This document shows positions 45,440 through 56,838 of a stretch of 64,000 nucleotides of DNA, one piece after another (within the stretch, counting starts at the first letter, position 1; the number at the start of each line of letters is the position of its first letter). The position numbers were made by a program, and so were the translations under genes. The notes beneath the pieces are model-generated. The model was not told where the DNA came from, did no database searches, and was given only the letters and a program-made list of their open reading frames with translations. Origin of the DNA: Oscillatoriaceae cyanobacterium Prado104 (GTDB lineage Bacteria; Cyanobacteriota; Cyanobacteriia; Cyanobacteriales; Microcoleaceae); contig JALOON010000009.1 of assembly GCA_025454405.1 (NCBI GenBank), forward strand, positions 1-64,000, read 5' to 3'.

Positions 45440-47227
45440 TTAATTGCTGCCCACAGGTGAGGTCCCCGGACGGCAAATTAGTTGACCTTGCACGTATAGC
45501 GGATCTGGCGGGCGGATGTTGCTGGCTCGATCGGTTTCGCAGATAATCGATACGGTAACAGGATTGCTTTTTGTAGCCGCGTCCGTCAAAAAAACAGCTC
45601 CCACATATGCTCTTTGGTTGATGCTCGTAGGTATCGCATAGTGATACGCTCCCCTAGTAGTCGTGTGGATGGCAAAGTTAAACTTCGACAGCGGCAGTTG
45701 AATGTTAAACGAGCGTTGCAGCAAACTGACACCACCAGTAAATACACCGTTGCGCGTGCGGAAGGTTTGCTGGCCGCGCATTAAAGCTTGAATTGCTGAT
45801 TCCGCTCCGGGCGCTGTTGCCTGTCGCGCTGCTTGAAGTGCGGGCTGACTGCGCGGCTGTGATGTTGGTGCAGGTGTCGCTGCTGGTTGTTTTGCTTCTA
45901 GGGAGTTATTGGGTACTGGGCTGGTTTGGGGAACATTCCGGACTGGCTGCCGCGGCTCAACTCTAGCAATTGGCTCCACTCTGGTATTTGGGCTGCTCGT
46001 CAAAAAGAGTCCCAGCCCGCTATTGACTGCTAGTTGGAAGGCGTCTTCATTACCTGATGCTCCGAGGGATGCTGCTCTTTGAGCGTCTTCATTGGCTCCT
46101 TCGCTGTCTCCGACTATGCGGCGCACTTCGCTGCGGCGGTAGTAGCCAACCCCACTGTTGGGAGCGAGGCGGATAGCTTGGGCTATGTCGGAGTTAGCTC
46201 CTATGTAGTCTTTGATTTGAGCTCGGCTGACGCCCCGGAGTCCGTAGGCATCTGCAAAATTAGAATTGATTTGGATTGCTCTATCGAAGTCTGCAATCGC
46301 TTCTCTATGATTTCCTAATTGAGCGTGGCTAGCGCCGCGAACGCGGTAGGCTTCGGCTAATTGGGGATTGTTTTTGATGGCTTCGATCGCATTTTCTAGA
46401 GCTGCTCTATAATTTTTTTGAGCGAAGTAGGCGTAAGCTAAACCGTTGAAGGCGTCGCCGGAGTTTTGATTGAATCGCAGTCCTTGGGTGAAATCGGCGA
46501 TTGCACCTTGATAATTTTGTCGTTTGAGTTTTTCTTTTCCCTGTTCGGCATAAGCTTTAGGAGCTAGTTCGACAAAAGTGTTAATCGGAATTCCCAAGTT
46601 TACCCATGCTTTAACTACTCGGTCTTCTGCGCTCCCTTCTGTACGTCCGTGAACGCCAATTACGCGACCGCGAACATCGAGAACTGGTCCTCCGCTCATT
46701 CCTTGACGAGTTGGATTTGTATAGATTAATTCATAGCCGTCATCTACTCGTTCGCGAGCTGAAATTTGCCCTGCTGTCATCTGACGGATCTGTCTGTTAA
46801 TCGTGTCCCCCGGTTTCGGCCAGCCGGAAACGTAGACTTGTTCTCCCACTGTAGCTGTTTTAGAATCTCCCAATTGTGCTATCTGGTAATTATTCGAGCT
46901 GACAAATGATACGATCGCTAAATCGACTCCTGGCAATTGAATAATGTTGTTCCGGTCTACTCGGTAGGAAGTGCGATCGGGTGCTACAATTGTTAATTCA
47001 CCTCCTGAAGTTATTACGTGTTTTGCAGTGAGCGCGTAATAGGTACTTCCTTCTTTCGCAACAATTATCCCCGAACCCTGATTTCCTCCTGTAATTAATA
47101 CTGTAATTTGCTCGGCAATTTTATTGACTTGTTCTGCTGTTTGTGCTGTGGCATCTTGCGTTTGTACTATCGCTATTGTTGCAACGATCGGGGCTGCTAG
47201 AAGTCCGTATTTCAGGTTAATTGTCAT
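45440..47227 (-). CDS. Trypsin-like protease - TPR - pilin-like fusion protein
   Basis: 595 residues with a signal peptide (LAAPIVATIAIVQTQDATAQ). The protease domain (about 35-225) has His70 (LTAKHV), Asp102 (GVDLAIV) and Ser178 (QGMSGGPV), so it should be active. Four or more TPR units follow (about 230-390; AIADFDRAIQINSNFADAYG is typical). A Pro/Gln/Ala-rich linker leads to a C-terminal domain (about 490-595) starting AIQALMRGQQTFRTRNGVFT, like the globular part of type IV pilin-like proteins. It is the last of six co-oriented genes. Exported; role unknown. Confidence 0.82.
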   Translation of the reverse strand: MTINLKYGLLAAPIVATIAIVQTQDATAQTAEQVNKIAEQITVLITGGNQGSGIIVAKEGSTYYALTAKHVITSGGELTIVAPDRTSYRVDRNNIIQLPGVDLAIVSFVSSNNYQIAQLGDSKTATVGEQVYVSGWPKPGDTINRQIRQMTAGQISARERVDDGYELIYTNPTRQGMSGGPVLDVRGRVIGVHGRTEGSAEDRVVKAWVNLGIPINTFVELAPKAYAEQGKEKLKRQNYQGAIADFTQGLRFNQNSGDAFNGLAYAYFAQKNYRAALENAIEAIKNNPQLAEAYRVRGASHAQLGNHREAIADFDRAIQINSNFADAYGLRGVSRAQIKDYIGANSDIAQAIRLAPNSGVGYYRRSEVRRIVGDSEGANEDAQRAASLGASGNEDAFQLAVNSGLGLFLTSSPNTRVEPIARVEPRQPVRNVPQTSPVPNNSLEAKQPAATPAPTSQPRSQPALQAARQATAPGAESAIQALMRGQQTFRTRNGVFTGGVSLLQRSFNIQLPLSKFNFAIHTTTRGAYHYAIPTSINQRAYVGAVFLTDAATKSNPVTVSIICETDRASNIRPPDPLYVQGQLICRPGTSPVGSN

Positions 47228-47398: not shown

Positions 47399-47968
47399 CT
47401 ACTGCGACGATTCAGATTCGATCGGTTGGGTATTGAGATATTCGCCCATATCGATGTAAAGTCGATCGTTAATTTCTACATCAATTCGGCTAGAAGGTGC
47501 ACTTTCGTTGAGTGAATTGGCTCCTGCTTGATGGCGCAAATTCAACAGGCGTTTTAATGTTTCTCGCGGATTGCTGCCCGGTTTAATGGTAAATAACAAG
47601 CCGCTGTTTGGTAACTCGCGAGCGCAGTCGCCACCGGGACGGTTGGCAACGCAAATTACAGGTTGTCGGTTAATAATTCCGGTAGTCAGGTATTTGAGCC
47701 GTCCGGTTTTGTAATATTGTTGAAATCTGTCAGACACCAGTTCGCAGCGTCGCTGAGCGTCAAATCCAGCGTCTGAAAAACTATTAGAAACCCAATTGAT
47801 TACTGTAAAGCTGCCTTCGGGCCTGCGCAAAATAGTTGCTGGCTGACCTGCTTTTTTGCCGCAAAAGAAGCCTGAGGTTTGGGCCGCAGCCGGACTGCTG
47901 GCTGCAATGGTGGTAACAAGTGCGATCGCCGATACAGCGATCGAAGATGTTAGTGTTTTAAGCTTCAT
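47399..47968 (-). CDS. COP23 domain protein
   Basis: 189 residues. Signal peptide: ALVTTIAASSPAAAQT (about 16-31). The mature protein has GFFCGKKAGQPATILRRPEG, FDAQRRCELVSDRFQQYYKT, GRLKYLTTGIINRQPVICVA and LFTIKPGSNPRETLKRLLNL, the pattern of the circadian oscillating protein COP23 family, common in multiple copies in cyanobacteria near TPR or protease proteins. Four cysteines may form disulfides. Periplasmic. Its place between kinase and protease genes is a recurring arrangement of such modules (inference). Confidence 0.88.
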   Translation of the reverse strand: MKLKTLTSSIAVSAIALVTTIAASSPAAAQTSGFFCGKKAGQPATILRRPEGSFTVINWVSNSFSDAGFDAQRRCELVSDRFQQYYKTGRLKYLTTGIINRQPVICVANRPGGDCARELPNSGLLFTIKPGSNPRETLKRLLNLRHQAGANSLNESAPSSRIDVEINDRLYIDMGEYLNTQPIESESSQ

Positions 47969-48329: not shown

Positions 48330-50075
48330 TTAGAAAAGAGTTTTGTTGCCGTCTTTAGGAGTTGGGGCATCGGGGAGAGAGGGGGAGGGTTTGGGATCTG
48401 GTGGGAGTTCGCTACTGTCGGATGGCGGTTTAAAAAGGTCGTAATCTGGACTTGGTGTAGCTTCGGAACTGGATGGTTCGGGAGTTGACGGTTCGGGACT
48501 CGCCTGTTCGGGGCTGGGGGCTTGGCGGATGGAATTTTCAATGTCTTGAATTTGGCGCTCCCATTCTGCTAAACGGGCTTTTACTTTGTCAGCAATCAAG
48601 GAATCGGTAGCTATTGTTTTGAGTTGGTCTGTTGCTTGAATCAACAGAGATTTCTGTTTGGATAATTCGATTTCTTTTGGTGCATTTTCCGCGATCGCCT
48701 CTGCTGCTTCTAATTGTTTCTCGGCTTGTGCTTCTCTTGCCAAATGCACTTCCATTCCAGTCAATTCGCTTTGATAGGAAGGCAAGAGTTTTTGGGTATC
48801 GGGATAAACTTTAGCCGTTGGCGGAATGCTTGAAAGTCGCTCGATCGCGCTTTTCATGCGATCGCGAGCGGCCTGCAAATCTCCGACTGTTTGAGCGTTT
48901 TGCCCTAAAACCCGCGCTCCAGCAGCCTGTTGGACGGCGCTATTGTAACTTTCGTTAAAGGGTTTATCCGCCACACAGTTATTGAGAGGGCGGCACAAAA
49001 AACCAATGCGAGGCGACTCAAGAGCGGCAACTCCACCGACTAGGAACAAAATTGGCAAGACAATTAGGGCGATCTTTTTCCACTGAGATGAATTGTCGCG
49101 GTTTTGATACTGTTGGGCTCGAGGATAATTTACAGACTGGTATGAATTGCCTGTATATTGACTGTCAGTAGAAATTATAGTTGAGTCTTGCCCAGCACCT
49201 TGACTTAATTCAGTTTCTGATGAACTCATAATAGTTTTTTGTGTTGTTCGATCGTTATCGATCGCATTTAAAACATCTCTAGCTGACTGATAGCGATCGC
49301 TCGGTTTTTCCTGCAACATTTTATCAACAATTATCGCCAATTTGTCGCTAACATTTACGTGCGATCGCCATTCCCAATCCCCATCGTAATTCCTCAAAGT
49401 ATTTGGTTCTTTACCAGTTAGCAAGACGATTGCCGTCACGGCCAAAGCATAGAGGTCGCTATTGGGATAACACTCACCGCCCCGTAACTGTTCCGATGGA
49501 GCATAAGCTACTTTTCCCACTTGAGTAGGTTGGCTTGAACTAGCAAAACCACCGCTACTTATGAGTTGTGTTTCCGCATATTTAACCACGCCGAAATCAA
49601 TCAGCACTGGTTTTGATTTGCCCTGCGGCAGCATGATATTATCCGGTGAAATATCGCGGTGAATAATCCCTTTTCCGTGAATGTATTCGAGAACTTCCAG
49701 AATATCCCGCAGCCATTGAACGATATCTTTTTCGGCAAATGTTTGACCTTGAAGCCGTAAATCCCAGTAAGTTTTGCCATTAACAAATTCCTGCACGATA
49801 AACAATCGATCGTTATCTTCAAACCACTCAACAAACTCTGGGATTTGGCGGTGATTGCACTTATCTAAAATTTTAGCTTCTCGAATAAATAGTTCGCGAG
49901 CTTTTTGCAATGCTTCTGGTTTGGTATTGCTGGGAGCAAACTCCTTGAGAACGCAATAATTATTTTTTTGTTTGTCTGACGCTAAATAGGTGCGACCAAA
50001 TCCACCTTGACCCAAAATTCGGTCAATTACATAGCGTTCTTTAATCAAAGTTGTAGCAGATAGTTCGGGTATCAC
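48330..50075 (-). CDS. Membrane-anchored Ser/Thr protein kinase
   Basis: 581 residues. The Hanks-type kinase domain is at 14-~275: GQGGFGRTY (P-loop), Lys44 in VLKEF, Glu in IREAKIL, HRDISPDN (Asp141) and IDFGVVK (Asp160). HRD then ISPDN replaces the more usual LKPEN. One transmembrane helix is at about 335-352 (IALIVLPILFLVGGVAAL), then an extracytoplasmic part with a Cys pair (GFLCRPLNNCVA), a long coiled coil (about 370-510) and a Pro/Ser/Glu tail. It is immediately downstream of the tubulin-like gene on the same strand. Confidence 0.92.
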   Translation of the reverse strand: MIPELSATTLIKERYVIDRILGQGGFGRTYLASDKQKNNYCVLKEFAPSNTKPEALQKARELFIREAKILDKCNHRQIPEFVEWFEDNDRLFIVQEFVNGKTYWDLRLQGQTFAEKDIVQWLRDILEVLEYIHGKGIIHRDISPDNIMLPQGKSKPVLIDFGVVKYAETQLISSGGFASSSQPTQVGKVAYAPSEQLRGGECYPNSDLYALAVTAIVLLTGKEPNTLRNYDGDWEWRSHVNVSDKLAIIVDKMLQEKPSDRYQSARDVLNAIDNDRTTQKTIMSSSETELSQGAGQDSTIISTDSQYTGNSYQSVNYPRAQQYQNRDNSSQWKKIALIVLPILFLVGGVAALESPRIGFLCRPLNNCVADKPFNESYNSAVQQAAGARVLGQNAQTVGDLQAARDRMKSAIERLSSIPPTAKVYPDTQKLLPSYQSELTGMEVHLAREAQAEKQLEAAEAIAENAPKEIELSKQKSLLIQATDQLKTIATDSLIADKVKARLAEWERQIQDIENSIRQAPSPEQASPEPSTPEPSSSEATPSPDYDLFKPPSDSSELPPDPKPSPSLPDAPTPKDGNKTLF

Positions 50076-50095
50076 TATTTTCTAATCTTGCTTCA

Positions 50096-50540
50096 GAGCA
50101 ACCTACAGAAATTTCGTTTTTACACAAATCTCGATCCCCCTAAATCCCCCTTAAGAAAGGGGACTTCAAGAACTTTTCCATCTCTCCCCATCGAAGAGAA
50201 ACCTAGAGAAATTTCGTTGTTACACAAATCTCGATCCCCCTAAATCCCCCTTAAGAAGAGGGGGACTTTAAGAACTTTTCCATCTCTCCCCCTCAGAGCA
50301 ACCTAGAGAAATTTCGCTTTTACACAAATCTCGATCCCCCTAAATCCCCCTTAAGAAGGGGGACTTTAAGAACTTTTCCATCTCTCCCCATAGAAGAGAA
50401 ATTTTGACGCTCTTGCTCCCCCCTTTTTAAGGGGGGCTGGGGGGGATCGGGCACCATTTTCAACAAGCATTAAGAAACCGGGTTTCTAACGATCGATCTG
50501 GGTTTTCTTGCATAATCTTTGCCAGAAACCCGGTTTCTGA
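50096..50540. repeat. Three ~100-bp tandem units with GATCCCCCTAAATCCCCCTT, inverted copy, and AAACCCGGTTTCT palindrome
   Basis: GATCCCCC cores at 50132, 50233 and 50333 give a 100-101-bp period, each unit with AACCTAGAGAAATTTCG. An inverted TTTTTAAGGGGGGCTGGGGG copy ends near 50450, and AGAAACCGGGTTTCT ... AGAAACCCGGTTTCT spans 50473-50540. It fills the kinase-tubulin gap. Confidence 0.88.
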
Positions 50541-50560
50541 CCTTGATGCAAAATCTCAGT

Positions 50561-53500
50561 TTAACCGAGTTGAATTAGCTTCGTACCGCACCGAGCGCAG
50601 AATTTAGAACTATGAGGATTCTTGTGACCGCAGCTCGTACAAAATACAAAATCTTGCTGGATTTTTGCCGGCGGTGGCTCAACCACATCAGGAGGATTGA
50701 TGACAGTATTAGCAGTATAAATTGACTCTTGTTTCTGAGTTGCGTTCGTTACATTCGGTTGAGATTGCGGCGGAGTTTGAGCAACGGGTGCGGGCGTCGG
50801 AGTTTGACCGGCCGCCGGCGGGAGAAACTTGTAAGTTTCGATCAATTCTTGAACAATCTTAAGTTCTCGTTTGTAAACCGGACTTTCGTTTCCTCCTTCT
50901 TTATCTAATTCAACTTCCCGCGCATCAAGATATGCCTTCAGTTGAGTGTATAACTGTTGTTTTTGCGGCACATCTTCCGCCGCCGTCAAGATTTCTGTCA
51001 CCTGTCTTTGAATCTCTTCTTTGTCAGGACGACAGGCGACAACTTCCAAAAGTTGCACCGTTTCTTCCCAACTCGAAGCCAAATCTACATTCTCCGTACC
51101 CAGCACATTTTTTACTGTGTAGCGAATCACTTTTTCCTTGGTATTGCGGTTTTCTTCCCGGCGCAAAACTCCCAAAGCACGCGCTTGCACTACCAGTTTC
51201 AAGATTTTCTCATCCTCGGGAAATACATCCCAAAAAGGCGCTTCTTTTTGAATGTGAACTGGGATGGGAGGGTCTTTGCTTTCTCCCCGTGCTTTGGCTC
51301 GTTTTGCCTGGATTGATTGCCCTTTCCAATCTTGATAAGATTGTCGCAATTCCCGCATTCCTTCAATGCAGCGCAAGGAAAAACCGCCGATTTCTTGCAC
51401 GAAAACTATGCGGTGGCGTTCTGCTTCTCCCAGTGGGGTAATTGCATCGTTGCTACCTACCCGTTCTCGGAGTAAAGGAATTAATTTAATGGCAGCGGGT
51501 TCGGTGCTGTTGCGCCCGCCAACAATGGCTGCTTTGGTATTGAGTGCTGGCGTAAAACCTGCATCTTTTCCCTTCATGATCGGATCGGAAAGCAGAATTA
51601 GGGGTTTAGATTTATTGTAGGCGATCTCGAGTTGACTGCGAATGTCTGTTTCGTCATTTTTAAACATTTTAAACAGTCCGTCGCAGGCCGCTAAATCTCG
51701 TTTTAAGCGACTGCTATTAGGTGCGTTTGTTATTACCAACCGCGTTTTTTCATCGATAATTTCCTTGAAATCCGGATCTTGTACGTCCTGCAATTGCGGC
51801 AAGTCAAACAGTCGCATTACTTCATCCGCCTCGCGGTTTTGTTTCCACAGCGGGCTAGCTTCTTCGAGCACTTGCTTTGACAAATTGCTGCAAGTTCCGT
51901 CCATTCCCAATTCGTACTTGCTGCGCGCACCTTCGGAAGCACCTGCTAATTGTTCGATCGTATCTCGGTACAAGTCATTTAGTTGCTGGCGATCGAACAA
52001 TTTGATACCGTTAATTACCAGTACATCCGCACTGCTGGCTTGTTTGTCTGCTGCTGCTTGAAACTCATCGCGATTTTGCCGCAACTTTTGATTCAAGCGA
52101 GCCAAACGAGTTTCTAAGTCTGTTAAATGCTCTTGCAGCCTGATAATTACTTCGACTCCCAAGTTTCTGATTTTGCGCTGAATAATCGCAATTAAACTTC
52201 CCTCTAACCCGCTCAGAGCCGCAGCACAATACCGTTCCATTGCATCTTGTTTGCTCAAACCAAACTTATCTTGGTAATGAGTAACATCTTCCAAACCCTT
52301 TTGGTATTGTTGCAGGAAACGCCCCTCATTTGGCTCCCAAATTTTTTCGGCTTCCCGCCGAAACTTCTCCACAGCATTTTCAAAAATTTGCCGCACTGTA
52401 ACGATAAAAGCATCGGCAAATTTTGGTCCTTTATTGCGGTCTTCAAGAATCGCGTAAAATTCAGTTTCTAGGCTTTTGCGTCCTTCTTTGATAAGGCGAT
52501 TGCGGTTATCGTACATTTTTTGCAGGTAATCGCCGTGCAATCGCTCGTCGGGACTCATTTCGCGCAGGTGTTCGCTGCGATATTCCTCAACTTTCTTTTG
52601 TAAATAGTTGACAAATTGCAGGATTTTGCCTTTTTCTCCCCCAAAAATTCCCAACAATCCTTGCTGGGTAGATTGGAGTTTGTTGTCTCCATTAATTTCG
52701 TTGCGGATGCTGTTTACCCAGTTGGAAAGTTCTGCTAAATAAGATTTATCGCCCGCAGCCATCAAATCTGTCAGCATTTCCATTTCTGTGAGTCGAATTC
52801 GTTTGAGGTCGCTTTGTACGACTTCCTGGAGATTGGGGACTAATTGTACTGATTCGTTCAGCCACCAACTCACAAAATCCGCCGCTAGTCGATTGGCTAA
52901 AGATGTGCGAATTTGGGCGATCGGAATTTCAATTGTTGACAGCCCAAAACTCATAAATTGTTTGGAATAGCTGCGACCGCCGGGGTCTGCTTGGGCCCAC
53001 GAACCTTTAATGTTATCTCGGATCGATCGCTTGTGGGGAGCAAAATCTGAGGTCAAGTCGAGGAAGATATTCTGAGCGATCATTTCCCGAATTTGGTCGA
53101 GGGGAAATTCTGTTTCGCCGTTTTTTGTTCCGACTAAATAAGTAAAGTCAAAAGGCGGTCTTTTGTCGCGGATTTCATCAATTAAACCAGCGCTGTACTG
53201 CACTGAATATTCCGTGCGGTAGTCGGAAAAATAGCTCAATTCCATTAAGGCTGCGTAGCCGTTAGCTAAAACTCGATCGCCCACATTAATGCCAGCAAAA
53301 GCGTTGGGCATCGGTACAATTGCTGTAGTATTGGGACTCGATTGTCCTTGCAACCACTTGCGCACGGCATAGCCGATATCGATAATCATCCCGCTACCCG
53401 TACCGCCAGAAATTGAGCCGGTCACAAACACGTTTATCGAGTTACTATTTACCTTGACGTTGTATTTGTCCAACATCGAAGTGTCGTGACCTTTGACGCG

Positions 53501-53926
53501 ATCGCAGGCTGCATTAAAGGCTCGTTTAATGTTATGATAGTTGTGAAAAAATGCAAACCGACCGCAGGCTCGAATCTGTCCGGCTCCCGCTTCTAACGCC
53601 GTCATGTTGCGCTCTAATTCATTGGGAAACCAAGCTTCGATCCACGGGAAGTTGTCCATGCTGGACATGATATTTTCTACTTCAGTACCGCTAACTTTAG
53701 CAAAGAATTTTTCGTTGTCTTTAAACGGAGTTCCGCCCGCACCGGGATTGTTGAGTTTGTATTCTTTGTCTGTATCGACGATCAGAAAACTGATAATCGG
53801 AAAATTCTTTAAGCTTCCGTAGGTTTCTTCTACTAAGCGGCGCACCCTCGCCAGCACTTCATTACCAGTTCCTCCGACTCCGATTAATACGGTAGGAACC
53901 ATACTTTTTTCATCAACAGCAGCCAT
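50561..53926 (-). CDS. Large tubulin/FtsZ-like GTPase (Tubulin_2 type) with C-terminal zinc ribbon
   Basis: 1121 residues. The N-terminal VPTVLIGVGGTGNEVLARVR is the first nucleotide-binding strand and loop; FVTGSISGGTGSGMIIDIGY (about 168-187) is the tubulin/FtsZ GTP-binding signature. The region to about 400 matches the Tubulin_2 family. Then come long helical segments (about 420-700) and a region with FVQEIGGFSLRCIEGMRELR. The last 29 residues hold Cys1096, Cys1099, Cys1110 and Cys1113 (FCTSCGHK and KFCARCG), a double-Cys zinc ribbon. FtsZ-like proteins of this kind are proposed to act in membrane remodelling with VWA proteins; the function here is unknown. Confidence 0.88.
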   Translation of the reverse strand: MAAVDEKSMVPTVLIGVGGTGNEVLARVRRLVEETYGSLKNFPIISFLIVDTDKEYKLNNPGAGGTPFKDNEKFFAKVSGTEVENIMSSMDNFPWIEAWFPNELERNMTALEAGAGQIRACGRFAFFHNYHNIKRAFNAACDRVKGHDTSMLDKYNVKVNSNSINVFVTGSISGGTGSGMIIDIGYAVRKWLQGQSSPNTTAIVPMPNAFAGINVGDRVLANGYAALMELSYFSDYRTEYSVQYSAGLIDEIRDKRPPFDFTYLVGTKNGETEFPLDQIREMIAQNIFLDLTSDFAPHKRSIRDNIKGSWAQADPGGRSYSKQFMSFGLSTIEIPIAQIRTSLANRLAADFVSWWLNESVQLVPNLQEVVQSDLKRIRLTEMEMLTDLMAAGDKSYLAELSNWVNSIRNEINGDNKLQSTQQGLLGIFGGEKGKILQFVNYLQKKVEEYRSEHLREMSPDERLHGDYLQKMYDNRNRLIKEGRKSLETEFYAILEDRNKGPKFADAFIVTVRQIFENAVEKFRREAEKIWEPNEGRFLQQYQKGLEDVTHYQDKFGLSKQDAMERYCAAALSGLEGSLIAIIQRKIRNLGVEVIIRLQEHLTDLETRLARLNQKLRQNRDEFQAAADKQASSADVLVINGIKLFDRQQLNDLYRDTIEQLAGASEGARSKYELGMDGTCSNLSKQVLEEASPLWKQNREADEVMRLFDLPQLQDVQDPDFKEIIDEKTRLVITNAPNSSRLKRDLAACDGLFKMFKNDETDIRSQLEIAYNKSKPLILLSDPIMKGKDAGFTPALNTKAAIVGGRNSTEPAAIKLIPLLRERVGSNDAITPLGEAERHRIVFVQEIGGFSLRCIEGMRELRQSYQDWKGQSIQAKRAKARGESKDPPIPVHIQKEAPFWDVFPEDEKILKLVVQARALGVLRREENRNTKEKVIRYTVKNVLGTENVDLASSWEETVQLLEVVACRPDKEEIQRQVTEILTAAEDVPQKQQLYTQLKAYLDAREVELDKEGGNESPVYKRELKIVQELIETYKFLPPAAGQTPTPAPVAQTPPQSQPNVTNATQKQESIYTANTVINPPDVVEPPPAKIQQDFVFCTSCGHKNPHSSKFCARCGTKLIQLG

Positions 53927-53936
53927 AATCCCCTCC

Positions 53937-54036
53937 TAAATAGTTGATAGTTGATAGTTGACAGTTGATATTTTGTTCGGTCAATTACCAGCGATTGAAA
54001 CGGTTTGTAGTGCGGACTTAAGTCCGCACTGCGAAC
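53937..54036. repeat. AGTTGATAGTTGAC heptamers and GTTTGTAG/CTGCGAAC palindrome
   Basis: Heptamers at 53940-53970; palindrome GTTTGTAGTGCGGACTTAAG ... CACTGCGAAC at 54003-54036, same family as 8245 and 36994. Confidence 0.85.
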
Positions 54037-54057
54037 AAATCCTCTTGTTTTACAAAG

Positions 54058-54972
54058 TTAACAACCGTCACCAAAAATTGGCAGACCGACTAATTTCCAA
54101 ATAATGCTAGGCGTGCAAGCCGTCCAGAAAAATGCATTGCCCAATGCTGCCTGACCTGCTAGAGTCATGTCCATCTTCATCATGCCTTGAAATAACCACC
54201 GATCGAGCGGCATCGTCAGCGTCCACATCAAAGCGATCCAAGCTGCACCCAACCAAAAAATTACCCATTTGATGTTACTATTCAACTTGGGAAAGATTTT
54301 TTCAGTAAATGAAGTATTGAGATTCACGTCGGCACCGGAAATATAAATTCCTCCTGTTTGTATAGTAGCTTGTTTGAGTGGCTCGAAACTTTTTCCCCCG
54401 AAGGTAATGCCATTAATTTTAACTTTGCGATCGACAGCTTCCTTAACAGTTTGCGGGGAAAGTTCGATGCCGGCATCGCTAACAATGACAATTTCGCGAC
54501 AGCTATTTGCCACAGTTTGAAAAGCATTTAGTGCCTGCCGGATGGGAACGTCCAGACTGTCTTGGGGAGGTTCTGGTTGCAGGGATCTGGGCAAGTTGGA
54601 GTCTTGCAAAGCTCTGACTAATTCTGCTTCTACCTTTTTGGTATCCGAACTAAAGCTACTGGTTAATGCTGGTGCTTTTCCACCGCCAATGCCAAATACT
54701 TGAATGGTATTGGGATTGCTCGGCAATTGAGAATTTACTGCTAAATAGGCTTTGACTGCTGCCACTTCTTGCTGCATAATTGTGCCTGGAGCATTGAAGG
54801 CTTGGGGCTGGTAGGTGCTGCTGCTGAGATCGAGGGCGATCGCAACTGCTATATTTGGTCTGCCAAACCCGAATATGCCGAAAAGTGCTGCGGCAATTAA
54901 ACAGAAACACAGCACGATTAACGGTCTTTGAAATAAAGGATGTTGCCACAGCGGGCGTTGAGTTCTAATCAC
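54058..54972 (-). CDS. Membrane-anchored VWA-domain protein
   Basis: 304 residues. Transmembrane helix at about 17-38, then a VWA domain (40-~225) with a MIDAS motif IALDLSSSTYQ (Asp48, Ser50, Ser52) and IVIVSDAG later. Two further helices are likely at about 235-257 and 272-295. The VWA domain should bind metal and partner proteins; by topology it could lie outside the cytoplasmic membrane. It sits between the binding-protein and tubulin-like genes on the same strand, with only repeats in the gaps. Confidence 0.82.
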   Translation of the reverse strand: MIRTQRPLWQHPLFQRPLIVLCFCLIAAALFGIFGFGRPNIAVAIALDLSSSTYQPQAFNAPGTIMQQEVAAVKAYLAVNSQLPSNPNTIQVFGIGGGKAPALTSSFSSDTKKVEAELVRALQDSNLPRSLQPEPPQDSLDVPIRQALNAFQTVANSCREIVIVSDAGIELSPQTVKEAVDRKVKINGITFGGKSFEPLKQATIQTGGIYISGADVNLNTSFTEKIFPKLNSNIKWVIFWLGAAWIALMWTLTMPLDRWLFQGMMKMDMTLAGQAALGNAFFWTACTPSIIWKLVGLPIFGDGC

Positions 54973-54978
54973 CGATCG

Positions 54979-55197
54979 GCCTAATGATTTTAGATTTTAG
55001 ATTTTGGATTTTCGATTGGAAATCGTTGGATTTTGGATTTTGGATTTTCGATTGGGGAATCGTTGGATTTTGGATTTTGGATTTTGGATGGTCGATCGTA
55101 GATTGAGGATTGTCAATCGATCGACTCTTCCTTCTTCTTTCTTCTTTCTTCCTTCTTCCTTCTTCCTTCTTCCTTCTTCCTTCTTCCTTCTTCCTTC
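54979..55197. repeat. GATTTTGGATTTT units and TTCCTTC heptamers
   Basis: TTTTAGATTTTGGATTTTCG blocks with CGATTGG at 54985-55090, then about nine TTCTTCC/TTCCTTC units at 55128-55197. The same pyrimidine array precedes cheB. Confidence 0.9.
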
Positions 55198-55215
55198 GTG
55201 TCAACGATCGACTGT

Positions 55216-56838
55216 TTATTTAACAGCATCAAACTGATATTTAGAGCCTGGCGGGCCGTCTTTACCTTCAACAGCCTTGACTAACGGAATCTCTTTTAAC
55301 AGGTCAAATTCCTTCGCCGTTCCCGATATCTGAGTTCCTGCAGTGAGAAATTTAACTGTTCCCTCGCGGGTAGGATTGCTGCTAATTGCTGCTGCTAAAG
55401 CTTGAGTAGCATCGAAAGCTGTTGCAGTGCGCCAACTGACTCGTCCTTTCCAAATCTCGGAGGCTTCTTTGGAAAAAGGATCGTCTTTTTCCCAGCGCCA
55501 AGGAACTGCTAGCACTAAATCTTTAATAGCGTCTCCTCCTTTAACTAAAGTCGTAGGAGTATAAAGTTCGCTGCCTCCCATTAATGCTAAAGGTGTGGCT
55601 GTTTCTTTATTGGCTTGAGCGATCGCGATCGCCTGTTCTACTTGGTCTTTGCTCATCGCCATAAATACCACATTTGCTCCGGCTTGGCTGACATCAGCTA
55701 CAGCAGCTTTAGCATCAAAAGTAGCACCCGCTTTGACATCGATTTCTTTAACAATTTTGCCGCCTGCTTTTGGCACTTCCAAAACTAATAGTTCTTTGAG
55801 TTGCTTGCTGTAAACGCTGTCAGAATTGTAGAAGATTGCGATCGCGGCGGGCGAGTGATTTTTGCTAGCATAATTTGCGACAGTTTCGCCAAGTTTTTGG
55901 AGGTAAACTTTGAGCATTTCCTCAGTTTTTTCCAGCATCTTGGTGAGTTTCAAGGTGGCTTTGTTAGCAGGGTCGATCGAAACGCTGGAACTAATCGGCG
56001 AAATAGCGGCTAATCCTGCGGTTTCATAGCTTTTTATTGCCTCTTGAGAGCTGCTATCAATGCCGTGTCCCAAAACTCCCAATACGCTGGCAGAGTTAAC
56101 TAAGTCTTGGGAGATCGATACAGTTTTGCCTGCTTCGTCATTAACAATTACTATTTCTAATAACCGACCGGGAACCGCAGGACTTTTGTTGAATTGTTCT
56201 TGATATAAAGCCGCGCCTCTGAGCACTTCTTTAGCTGCATCAGCACTGCCCGCGATCGGCACCACTACGGCAATTGTTAGGGGATTTCCTGTTTTTTGAG
56301 CCGCGGCATTGTTGAGATAAATTTTAGTTTCTGGGTCGTTGGGGTCTTTTGCGGCGGCTTCTTGATATTTCGCGATCGCATCATCCCAATTCTTACCTAC
56401 AAATGCGGCAGCTCCAGCTTGTTTTTCAGCATCAGCTTTGCCACCTGCGAGCAGAATTTTTTCCCCTTGACTCAGCAGCGAGGCGCTGACTGCTTTTGAG
56501 CTGAGGAATTCCCCCGGTGGAGCAGCAGTTATGGGAGTAGTCGGTGTGGCATCTCCAGGTGTCTCAGCAACCTCTGGCGTTTTGTTAGAAAACGCTTTGT
56601 ACAAACCAAATCCGCCACCACCGATGACTAATATTCCTGCAGCAGCGATCGCAATTGGTTTGATCGGCAGTCCATTTCCCGGTCCTGAAACCCTAGTATT
56701 TGTTGAACCAACTACAGCCTCTTTCGGCAAGCCGCACATCAAGCAAATTGGCCCGTCGTTGTCATAGGGCGGGTGGGGACCACTACCGTTATATTGTCCT
56801 GGATTGTGTTTGGGTACGCCGTCGCAGCTCCAACTCAT
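55216..56838 (-). CDS. LivK-type substrate-binding protein with Cys-rich N-terminus and membrane anchor
   Basis: 540 residues. The N-terminus (1-~40) has Cys5, Cys32 and Cys35 with His11 or His22, a possible zinc knuckle (CDGVPKHNPGQYN ... CLMCGLPKE). One membrane helix spans about 61-81 (IAIAAAGILVIGGGGFGLY). A TPR-like helical stretch (about 130-185) with AIAKYQEAAAKDPNDPETKI follows, then a type 1 periplasmic-binding domain (about 192-540) starting LTIAVVVPIAGSADAAKEVL and resembling amino-acid/amide receptors. No permease or ATPase is near, so it is more likely a sensor subunit than a transporter part (inference). First gene of the co-oriented run. Confidence 0.85.
   Translation of the reverse strand: MSWSCDGVPKHNPGQYNGSGPHPPYDNDGPICLMCGLPKEAVVGSTNTRVSGPGNGLPIKPIAIAAAGILVIGGGGFGLYKAFSNKTPEVAETPGDATPTTPITAAPPGEFLSSKAVSASLLSQGEKILLAGGKADAEKQAGAAAFVGKNWDDAIAKYQEAAAKDPNDPETKIYLNNAAAQKTGNPLTIAVVVPIAGSADAAKEVLRGAALYQEQFNKSPAVPGRLLEIVIVNDEAGKTVSISQDLVNSASVLGVLGHGIDSSSQEAIKSYETAGLAAISPISSSVSIDPANKATLKLTKMLEKTEEMLKVYLQKLGETVANYASKNHSPAAIAIFYNSDSVYSKQLKELLVLEVPKAGGKIVKEIDVKAGATFDAKAAVADVSQAGANVVFMAMSKDQVEQAIAIAQANKETATPLALMGGSELYTPTTLVKGGDAIKDLVLAVPWRWEKDDPFSKEASEIWKGRVSWRTATAFDATQALAAAISSNPTREGTVKFLTAGTQISGTAKEFDLLKEIPLVKAVEGKDGPPGSKYQFDAVK

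Follow-up and report, generated by a model that had tools for sequence, protein, structure and literature searches.

A tubulin-like GTPase and a receptor with a constant CHCC head recur together in cyanobacteria within one clade of the tubulin-like family

Why would a large tubulin-like GTPase be encoded next to a protein that resembles an extracytoplasmic ligand receptor? This question is raised by a locus of Oscillatoriaceae cyanobacterium Prado104, examined here within a 64,000-nucleotide stretch of contig JALOON010000009.1 (the window), in which genes at 48330-56838 encode a binding protein (hereafter the receptor), a von Willebrand factor A (VWA) protein, a tubulin-like GTPase, and a Ser/Thr kinase. 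A previous reading made from the letters of the window (the sequence-only reading) had described these as four co-oriented genes forming an undescribed membrane module, and all four open reading frames indeed lie on the minus strand of this interval. It had also proposed that three of the partners are membrane-bound. This agrees with our hydropathy analysis, which was used to call transmembrane helices while families were assigned with Pfam for eight window proteins: the receptor carries one helix, the VWA protein two or three, and the kinase one. The unit that recurs among relatives is receptor > VWA > tubulin-like, not four genes, and the partnership between the receptor head and the tubulin-like gene is well supported.

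The receptor gene (55216-56838, minus strand) encodes 540 amino acids and combines an N-terminal CHCC head, a transmembrane helix (residues 62-80), a TPR region with weak Pfam matches, and a Peripla_BP_6 sensor (expectation value, E, 8.4e-19). The head spans residues 3-35 (56707-56838, minus strand) and follows the pattern W-x-C-x-G, then H, then C-x(2-4)-C. All 41 heads that were aligned, a set preselected as profile matches that contain W-x-C, share its six key residues without exception (W3, C5, G7, H22, C32, and C35). AlphaFold2 predicts the head with a predicted local distance difference test (pLDDT) score of 86, and the fold has no match in the PDB at E 0.001. Judging from these residues, the head is probably zinc-binding. 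Lysine and arginine are more common on the head side of the transmembrane helix than on the other side (116 versus 73 residues in 42 proteins; 27 proteins for, 4 against, and 11 equal), and because of this charge bias we place the head inside the cell.

What follows the head differs between species. In most proteins, the sensor gives a Peripla_BP_6 or receptor-profile match. L103 has a PBP_like_2 domain instead, as do L109, L140, L152, and L165 judging from their sequences, and L145 and L052 have a Phosphonate-bd domain. Two head proteins of genome G187 instead carry a helical region related to the helical part of the window kinase. Thus, the outer sensor is exchangeable between species and the inner head is constant. 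The head profile missed a head-like protein at L166, which has a weak PsbP/DcrB-like match below the cut-offs. Of the 21 genomes found to carry a head, 19 have just one. As for a LivK-type transporter, no linked ATP-binding cassette permease or ATPase was seen among the window genes scanned, the set in which transporter families were sought. Other cyanobacterial loci (L174:86-5777 and L175:938-6287) encode Peripla_BP_6 sensors fused to AAA/STAND-type nucleoside triphosphatases (NTPases) or TPR proteins. These fusions share the sensor type with the window receptor, and both L174 proteins likewise have one transmembrane helix, but sensor and AAA-type NTPase or TPR part form a single chain there, whereas the window receptor bears a small CHCC head and the NTPase is a separate protein.

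To place these proteins, 63 stretches around the stronger Tubulin_2 matches were surveyed together with the best 80 of 107 named loci encoding a relative. The resulting tree holds 133 tubulin-like proteins of at least 800 amino acids from 132 loci, truncated copies (for example those of L138, L144, L148, L152, and L165) being uncounted, and genomes present twice were merged by clustering at 97% identity. It divides into two large groups plus a few outliers. One of these, the receptor clade, comprises 94 rows in 68 clusters, and includes the window protein. Of these 68 clusters, 46 have a receptor-profile match within 5 kb of the tubulin-like gene (some of these matches rest mainly on the head) and 45 have a VWA gene at such a distance. 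A CHCC head is present in this range in 37 clusters, and kinase, trypsin-like, and COP23 genes are present in 15, 15, and 8, respectively. In the 28 clusters of the sister clade, the corresponding count is 1 for the receptor and 0 for each of the others. The order receptor > VWA > tubulin-like recurs across distant cyanobacteria. The neighborhood search that the sequence-only reading had suggested as a check thus bears out the association: relatives do keep genes of this locus together, because three of them recur side by side and the head and tubulin-like gene co-occur even when unlinked.

This last point emerges from searches of whole genomes. Among 292 cyanobacterial genomes, 57 carry a Tubulin_2 protein above the cut-off, and the head was found in 20 of 20 genomes that encode a close relative of the window protein compared to 1 of 272 others (20 of 23 if the basal members G064, G085, and G241, which lack a head, are included). 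Half of the 20 genomes supplied the first head profile, and all ten that did not supply it also match (G089, G179, G247, G280, G095, G097, G235, G237, G253, and G111). Full-length receptors, defined by E <1e-180 so that the head protein of G056 (6.5e-84) is not counted, occur in 18 of the 20 close genomes and, among the matches listed, in 0 of 272 others; 10 of the 18 were not used for the profile. At the cut-offs used, the VWA protein is present in 14 of the 20 and in 0 of 272 others, a 25-bit match in G254 not being counted, and 5 of the 14 had no part in its profile. G089 and G179 carry their receptor and VWA genes elsewhere in the genome.

A second sample consisted of 378 genomes of the window's order and overlaps partly with the first. 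The profile used here was built from 41 heads, of which 40 lie next to named loci and many are probably conspecific with the genomes searched. It detected a head in 77 of 83 genomes with a receptor-clade tubulin-like gene and in 13 of 295 without one, counted among the matches listed; tightening the threshold to E 1e-6 leaves 76 of 83 and 9 of 295. Four of the six misses concern genomes that are <90% complete, and the other two (G064 and G486) carry divergent copies. The weak head among the 77 is that of G469 (E 9.6e-5). Within the window's genus, 29 of 29 genomes are concordant, with both genes in 9 and neither in 20. Head and tubulin-like gene are located within 12 kb of each other in 50 of the 77 genomes but not in the other 27. 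They are clearly unlinked in at least three genera, and share one contig at distances of about 280 kb to several Mb in G089, G179, G247, G095, G360, G460, G481, and G497.

The tubulin-like gene (50561-53926, minus strand) encodes a 1121-residue protein of the Tubulin_2/FtsZl1 family with a Tubulin_2 domain (52871-53890, minus strand; E 3.3e-110, 369 bits versus a cut-off of 27 bits), a helical middle part, and no transmembrane helix. Its genome contains no second Tubulin_2 gene, and the nearest named relatives by protein sequence come from Tychonema, Microcoleus, and Oscillatoriales. The terminal zinc ribbon that had been noticed in the sequence (50576-50644, minus strand) is also recovered by Pfam, just over the threshold at 25.3 versus 25 bits. 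The GTP-binding loop, GGTGSG (G174-G179), is invariant in 34 of 34 proteins, as is D290. This aspartate lies between predicted helices 276-289 and 296-309 and might occupy the position where a catalytic T7 loop would be expected. In the AlphaFold2 model (mean pLDDT 84.8), long helices extend between residues 434 and 784, in keeping with the long helical middle and largely helical C-terminal part typical of this family, and residues 794-950 form a mixed alpha/beta part. The best structural match in the PDB is archaeal CetZ2 (4b45; E 1.4e-4, probability 1.00, TM-score 0.49 on the target), but sequence identity is 14%, and the 334-residue CetZ chain lacks the long helical part. A search of solved structures by sequence gave a best E of 0.6 and nothing convincing. 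In several genomes, weak Tubulin_2 matches (E 1e-8 to 7e-4) are also present in frames of 494-532 amino acids, perhaps a second, short family.

The sequence-only reading had pointed to short zinc-binding-like modules in two of the partners. A pairing of the receptor head with the zinc ribbon of the tubulin-like protein was rejected, because most receptor-clade members end in a zinc ribbon, a GYF_2-like tail, or a SHOCT-like tail while the receptor head stays the same (one GYF_2 and one SHOCT tail were checked by Pfam, the latter scoring below its cut-off). Since other parts are exchanged, what stays constant is the head together with the tubulin-like body and, wherever a VWA protein is present, its membrane part.

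The VWA protein (54058-54972, minus strand; 304 amino acids) is encoded 131 bp upstream of the tubulin-like gene and consists of a transmembrane helix, an extracytoplasmic VWA domain, a second helix, a loop containing PLDRW, and another helix; two of the helices are called at the default threshold and the third at a lower one. Its Pfam score of 17.2 is below the 27-bit cut-off; of 33 members of its family, 21 match VWA_2 and 13 match VWA at E 0.01. The metal-ion-dependent adhesion site (MIDAS) described in the sequence-only reading as intact is nevertheless well conserved, the DxSxS, T, and D elements being retained in nearly all 33 proteins (D48, S50, and T53 in 33; S52 and D166 in 32; T104 in 31). 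C158 and C304 occur together in 32 of the 33 proteins and are lost together in the remaining one, a pattern that fits an external disulfide. Several loci (L068/L124/L122, L085/L147, and L133) have deleted the VWA domain and retained the membrane part.

The kinase is a different case. Its gene (48330-50075, minus strand) encodes 581 amino acids with a Pkinase domain (E 9.6e-42), one transmembrane helix, and an extracytoplasmic helical region, taken for a coiled coil in the sequence-only reading, which had counted the kinase as the fourth member. A kinase gene directly follows the tubulin-like gene in the same orientation in the Microcoleus/Tychonema group, in Spirulina (L114), and in L134/L135 (as two pieces in L134). 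Across the receptor clade, a kinase lies within 5 kb in 15 of 68 clusters, where the 70 kinases of the window's genome would predict a rate of about 12.6% (p 0.02), and at 80% clustering the count is 9 of 46 (p 0.12); the observed rate comes from a single-sequence search and the expected rate from a Pfam profile, a mismatch that works against enrichment. Being barely more common than genome density predicts, the kinase was rejected as a general member of the module; it is for the most part a local addition in the Microcoleus/Tychonema group and is not clearly enriched elsewhere. Hits of the kinase to the defense families PD-T4-6 and MAD6 were set aside as generic kinase similarity. Residues 286 onward resemble the regions behind the two G187 heads (28% and 27% identity, E 6.1e-12 and 4.5e-6, among 38 chosen genomes), and because of this resemblance a kinase may stand in for a head there.

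We tentatively favor, with slightly less than even confidence, the interpretation that this locus encodes a trans-envelope signaling system in which periplasmic receptors, exchangeable between species, govern a tubulin-like GTPase anchored at the membrane. The single-pass receptor would expose its interchangeable ligand-binding domain outside the cell and its probably zinc-binding CHCC head inside, where the head would couple to the soluble GTPase either directly or via one partner. With its PLDRW loop and conserved membrane part, the VWA protein would hold the GTPase at the membrane, and it would display its metal-dependent VWA domain outside, possibly for adhesion. Ligand binding would then alter the nucleotide state or the assembly of the GTPase at the membrane, and the kinase, COP23, and trypsin-like proteins may be lineage-specific additions that tune the module in some lineages. 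A bolder version, which we consider rather unlikely, holds that the receptors work solely via this one GTPase, that the head is a docking module, and that ligand switches tubulin assembly, which would make this a receptor-controlled cytoskeleton; given the sister clade's ZorAB-like motor, the family as a whole would then comprise trans-envelope sensors with a tubulin output.

Several observations weigh against the signaling interpretation. Physical interaction, a ligand, GTPase activity, and filaments are so far predictions, and the structural match to tubulins is modest (the CetZ TM-score of 0.49). This head is missing from basal receptor-clade members, namely G064, G085, and G241 of the first sample and G064 and G486 of the second one, and the L153 group has a different zinc ribbon as its receptor head. 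Conversely, the 13 of 295 genomes in which a head match occurs without a receptor-clade tubulin-like gene include four of genus g14 (G056, G398, G409, and G428), three having only a more distant tubulin-like gene. Of the 27 genomes in which the two genes are not within 12 kb of each other, 12 come from g23 and 8 from g153, and some of the remainder may reflect contig breaks. The VWA protein is missing from 6 of the 20 close genomes. Finally, linked cases match partly by construction, because the profiles were built from the same loci; the counts overstate independence, because the genomes are related; and absences are not absolute, because scoring was limited to the best-ranked candidates of each genome.

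How much of this is new must be judged against earlier descriptions. Operons in which FtsZl1 occurs with vWA and kinase genes were described in 2010 as membrane-remodeling operons (Makarova & Koonin, PMC2875224). They share with the window the Tubulin_2 family, a membrane vWA protein with a MIDAS, nearby kinases, and membrane-bound partners. A reviewer pointed out that FtsZl1 of Arthrospira has a branched-chain amino-acid binding protein as a neighbor, which the authors left aside as limited to a single organism or a few close ones (PMC2875224); an Arthrospira locus, L146, is among our receptor-clade loci. The OmpA-family neighbor given there as frequent though not universal corresponds to an OmpA-like profile near 0 of the 68 receptor-clade clusters, and the likewise frequent P-loop GTPase was seen in none of the eight window proteins scanned, the set in which it was sought. 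The receptor clade has instead a CHCC-head receptor with exchangeable sensors. Therefore, the claim that the module is undescribed stands in part: the FtsZl1/vWA/kinase association was known in 2010 with one binding-protein neighbor noted, but relative to that description it is new that the binding-protein partner is widespread in one clade and that the head is its constant element. Among the open-licence PMC papers listed in our searches, we found none on receptor-linked FtsZl1 and no report of a tested function for the FtsZl1 proteins of 2010. The partner offers a testable handle, as it follows one tubulin-like clade through gain, loss, and loss of linkage, and the ligands of its sensor domains can be assayed. 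If the interpretation is correct, the assembly of a bacterial tubulin-like protein would here be under receptor control, and the ZorAB-like loci of the sister clade would be tied to the same output.

The tubulin-like genes of that sister clade have different company. A VWA-like protein is encoded nearby in 27 of its 28 clusters, a MotA/ZorA-like protein in 27, and an OmpA/ZorB-like protein in 26, as counted with profiles built from those same neighbors. All three ZorA-like and all three ZorB-like proteins scanned match PADLOC Zorya families (best E 3.4e-16 and 7.4e-11, respectively), and one aspartate is invariant in 20 of 20 aligned ZorB-like proteins. It is possible, judging from these similarities, that such loci encode an ion-driven motor with a tubulin-like partner. 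At L049 (5431-12214), and in most of the 28 similar clusters, the tubulin-like gene is located between the VWA-like gene and the ZorA/ZorB-like pair; the upstream protein of L049 has no Pfam hit and was recognized as VWA by sequence reading. Thus, the two clades have in common the tubulin family and an upstream protein that reads as VWA, but a ZorAB-like pair takes the place of the receptor.

Other explanations can be offered for the window locus. The membrane-remodeling or vesicle machine of Makarova & Koonin, in which tubulin-like filaments reshape the inner membrane with the binding protein as a minor accessory, is compatible with the family and its vWA and kinase neighbors, which are as in PMC2875224, and the AlphaFold2 model does match CetZ and other tubulins. 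We nonetheless consider it improbable, since none of the partner features found is as constant as the receptor head and no remodeling activity or factor is evident among the neighbors identified, which are not all of them. Still less credence is given to a sensor of envelope damage or phage attack, meaning an NTPase-centered conflict system whose trans-envelope sensor triggers cytoplasmic tubulin assembly. The PADLOC matches of the sister clade, the patchy presence within genera, and the exchange of sensors point in this direction. So do the GTPase-centered systems with tubulins, membrane vWA proteins, and kinases that Kaur et al. (2020, PMC7159879) proposed as conflict systems of Firmicutes and Actinobacteria. 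Their GAP1-N2 systems resemble the window in a tubulin with a coiled-coil or helical C-terminal part, an outside-facing membrane vWA protein, zinc ribbons, and kinases, but they also carry DO-GTPase, GAP1, and FNIII proteins, none of which was recognized among the window proteins scanned, to which the search for DO-GTPase and GAP1 profiles was confined. In addition, no PADLOC family matches the tubulin-like, VWA, or receptor protein of the window at E 0.01, and those sensors that are known belong to ligand-binding proteins. DO-GTPase, GAP1, nucleases, and toxins may nevertheless occur near the relatives, as they were sought in the window only.

Control of polarity or surface motility, with a tubulin-like scaffold as the link between receptors and either type IV pili or gliding, is similarly doubtful. 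In its favor, genes that read as CheA and MCP end 92 and 135 bp upstream of the tubulin-like gene in L031 and L032, respectively, and the gene after it reads as a pilin; L121 from Thermosynechococcus has the same order of gene sizes; these names come from sequence reading rather than a family search. A pilin neighbor was remarked upon by Jekely (PMC2875224), and the trypsin-like neighbor in the window carries a Pilin_GH domain. However, the chemotaxis neighborhood was seen in L031, L032, and L121 only and is absent from their close relative L034, and COP23 is present near just 8 of the 68 clusters. A further explanation, that unrelated signaling genes are loosely clustered by common descent and have no joint function, draws on the weak association of the kinase and on the repeats and terminator-like hairpin that precede its gene. 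We regard it as very improbable in view of co-occurrence without linkage, the complete concordance in the window's genus, and the recurrent gene order in distant cyanobacteria.

The gap between the tubulin-like and kinase genes is 485 bp long. It contains three direct repeats of about 100 bp (50093-50401), which have G-rich and C-rich arms, and a weak terminator-like hairpin is located just past the stop codon of the tubulin-like gene (50555-50569, minus strand). The hairpin is a pattern match, and such hairpins number 16 in the region compared to a mean of 12.1 (standard deviation 3.4) in shuffled sequences, which is near chance frequency. In close relatives, the cluster continues co-oriented into COP23 and trypsin-type genes, which in the window correspond to 47968-45440, beyond the interval considered in the sequence-only reading. 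The first of these, encoding a COP23-family protein (47399-47968, minus strand), is the next gene in the Microcoleus/Tychonema cluster. The second encodes a protein with Trypsin_2, TPR, and Pilin_GH domains (45440-47227, minus strand). Trypsin-like genes are enriched near receptor-clade loci, where the 15 of 68 clusters compare to 3.6% expected (p 1.5e-8) and 9 of 46 remain at 80% clustering (p 3.2e-5), about a six-fold excess over a density taken from the window's genome alone.

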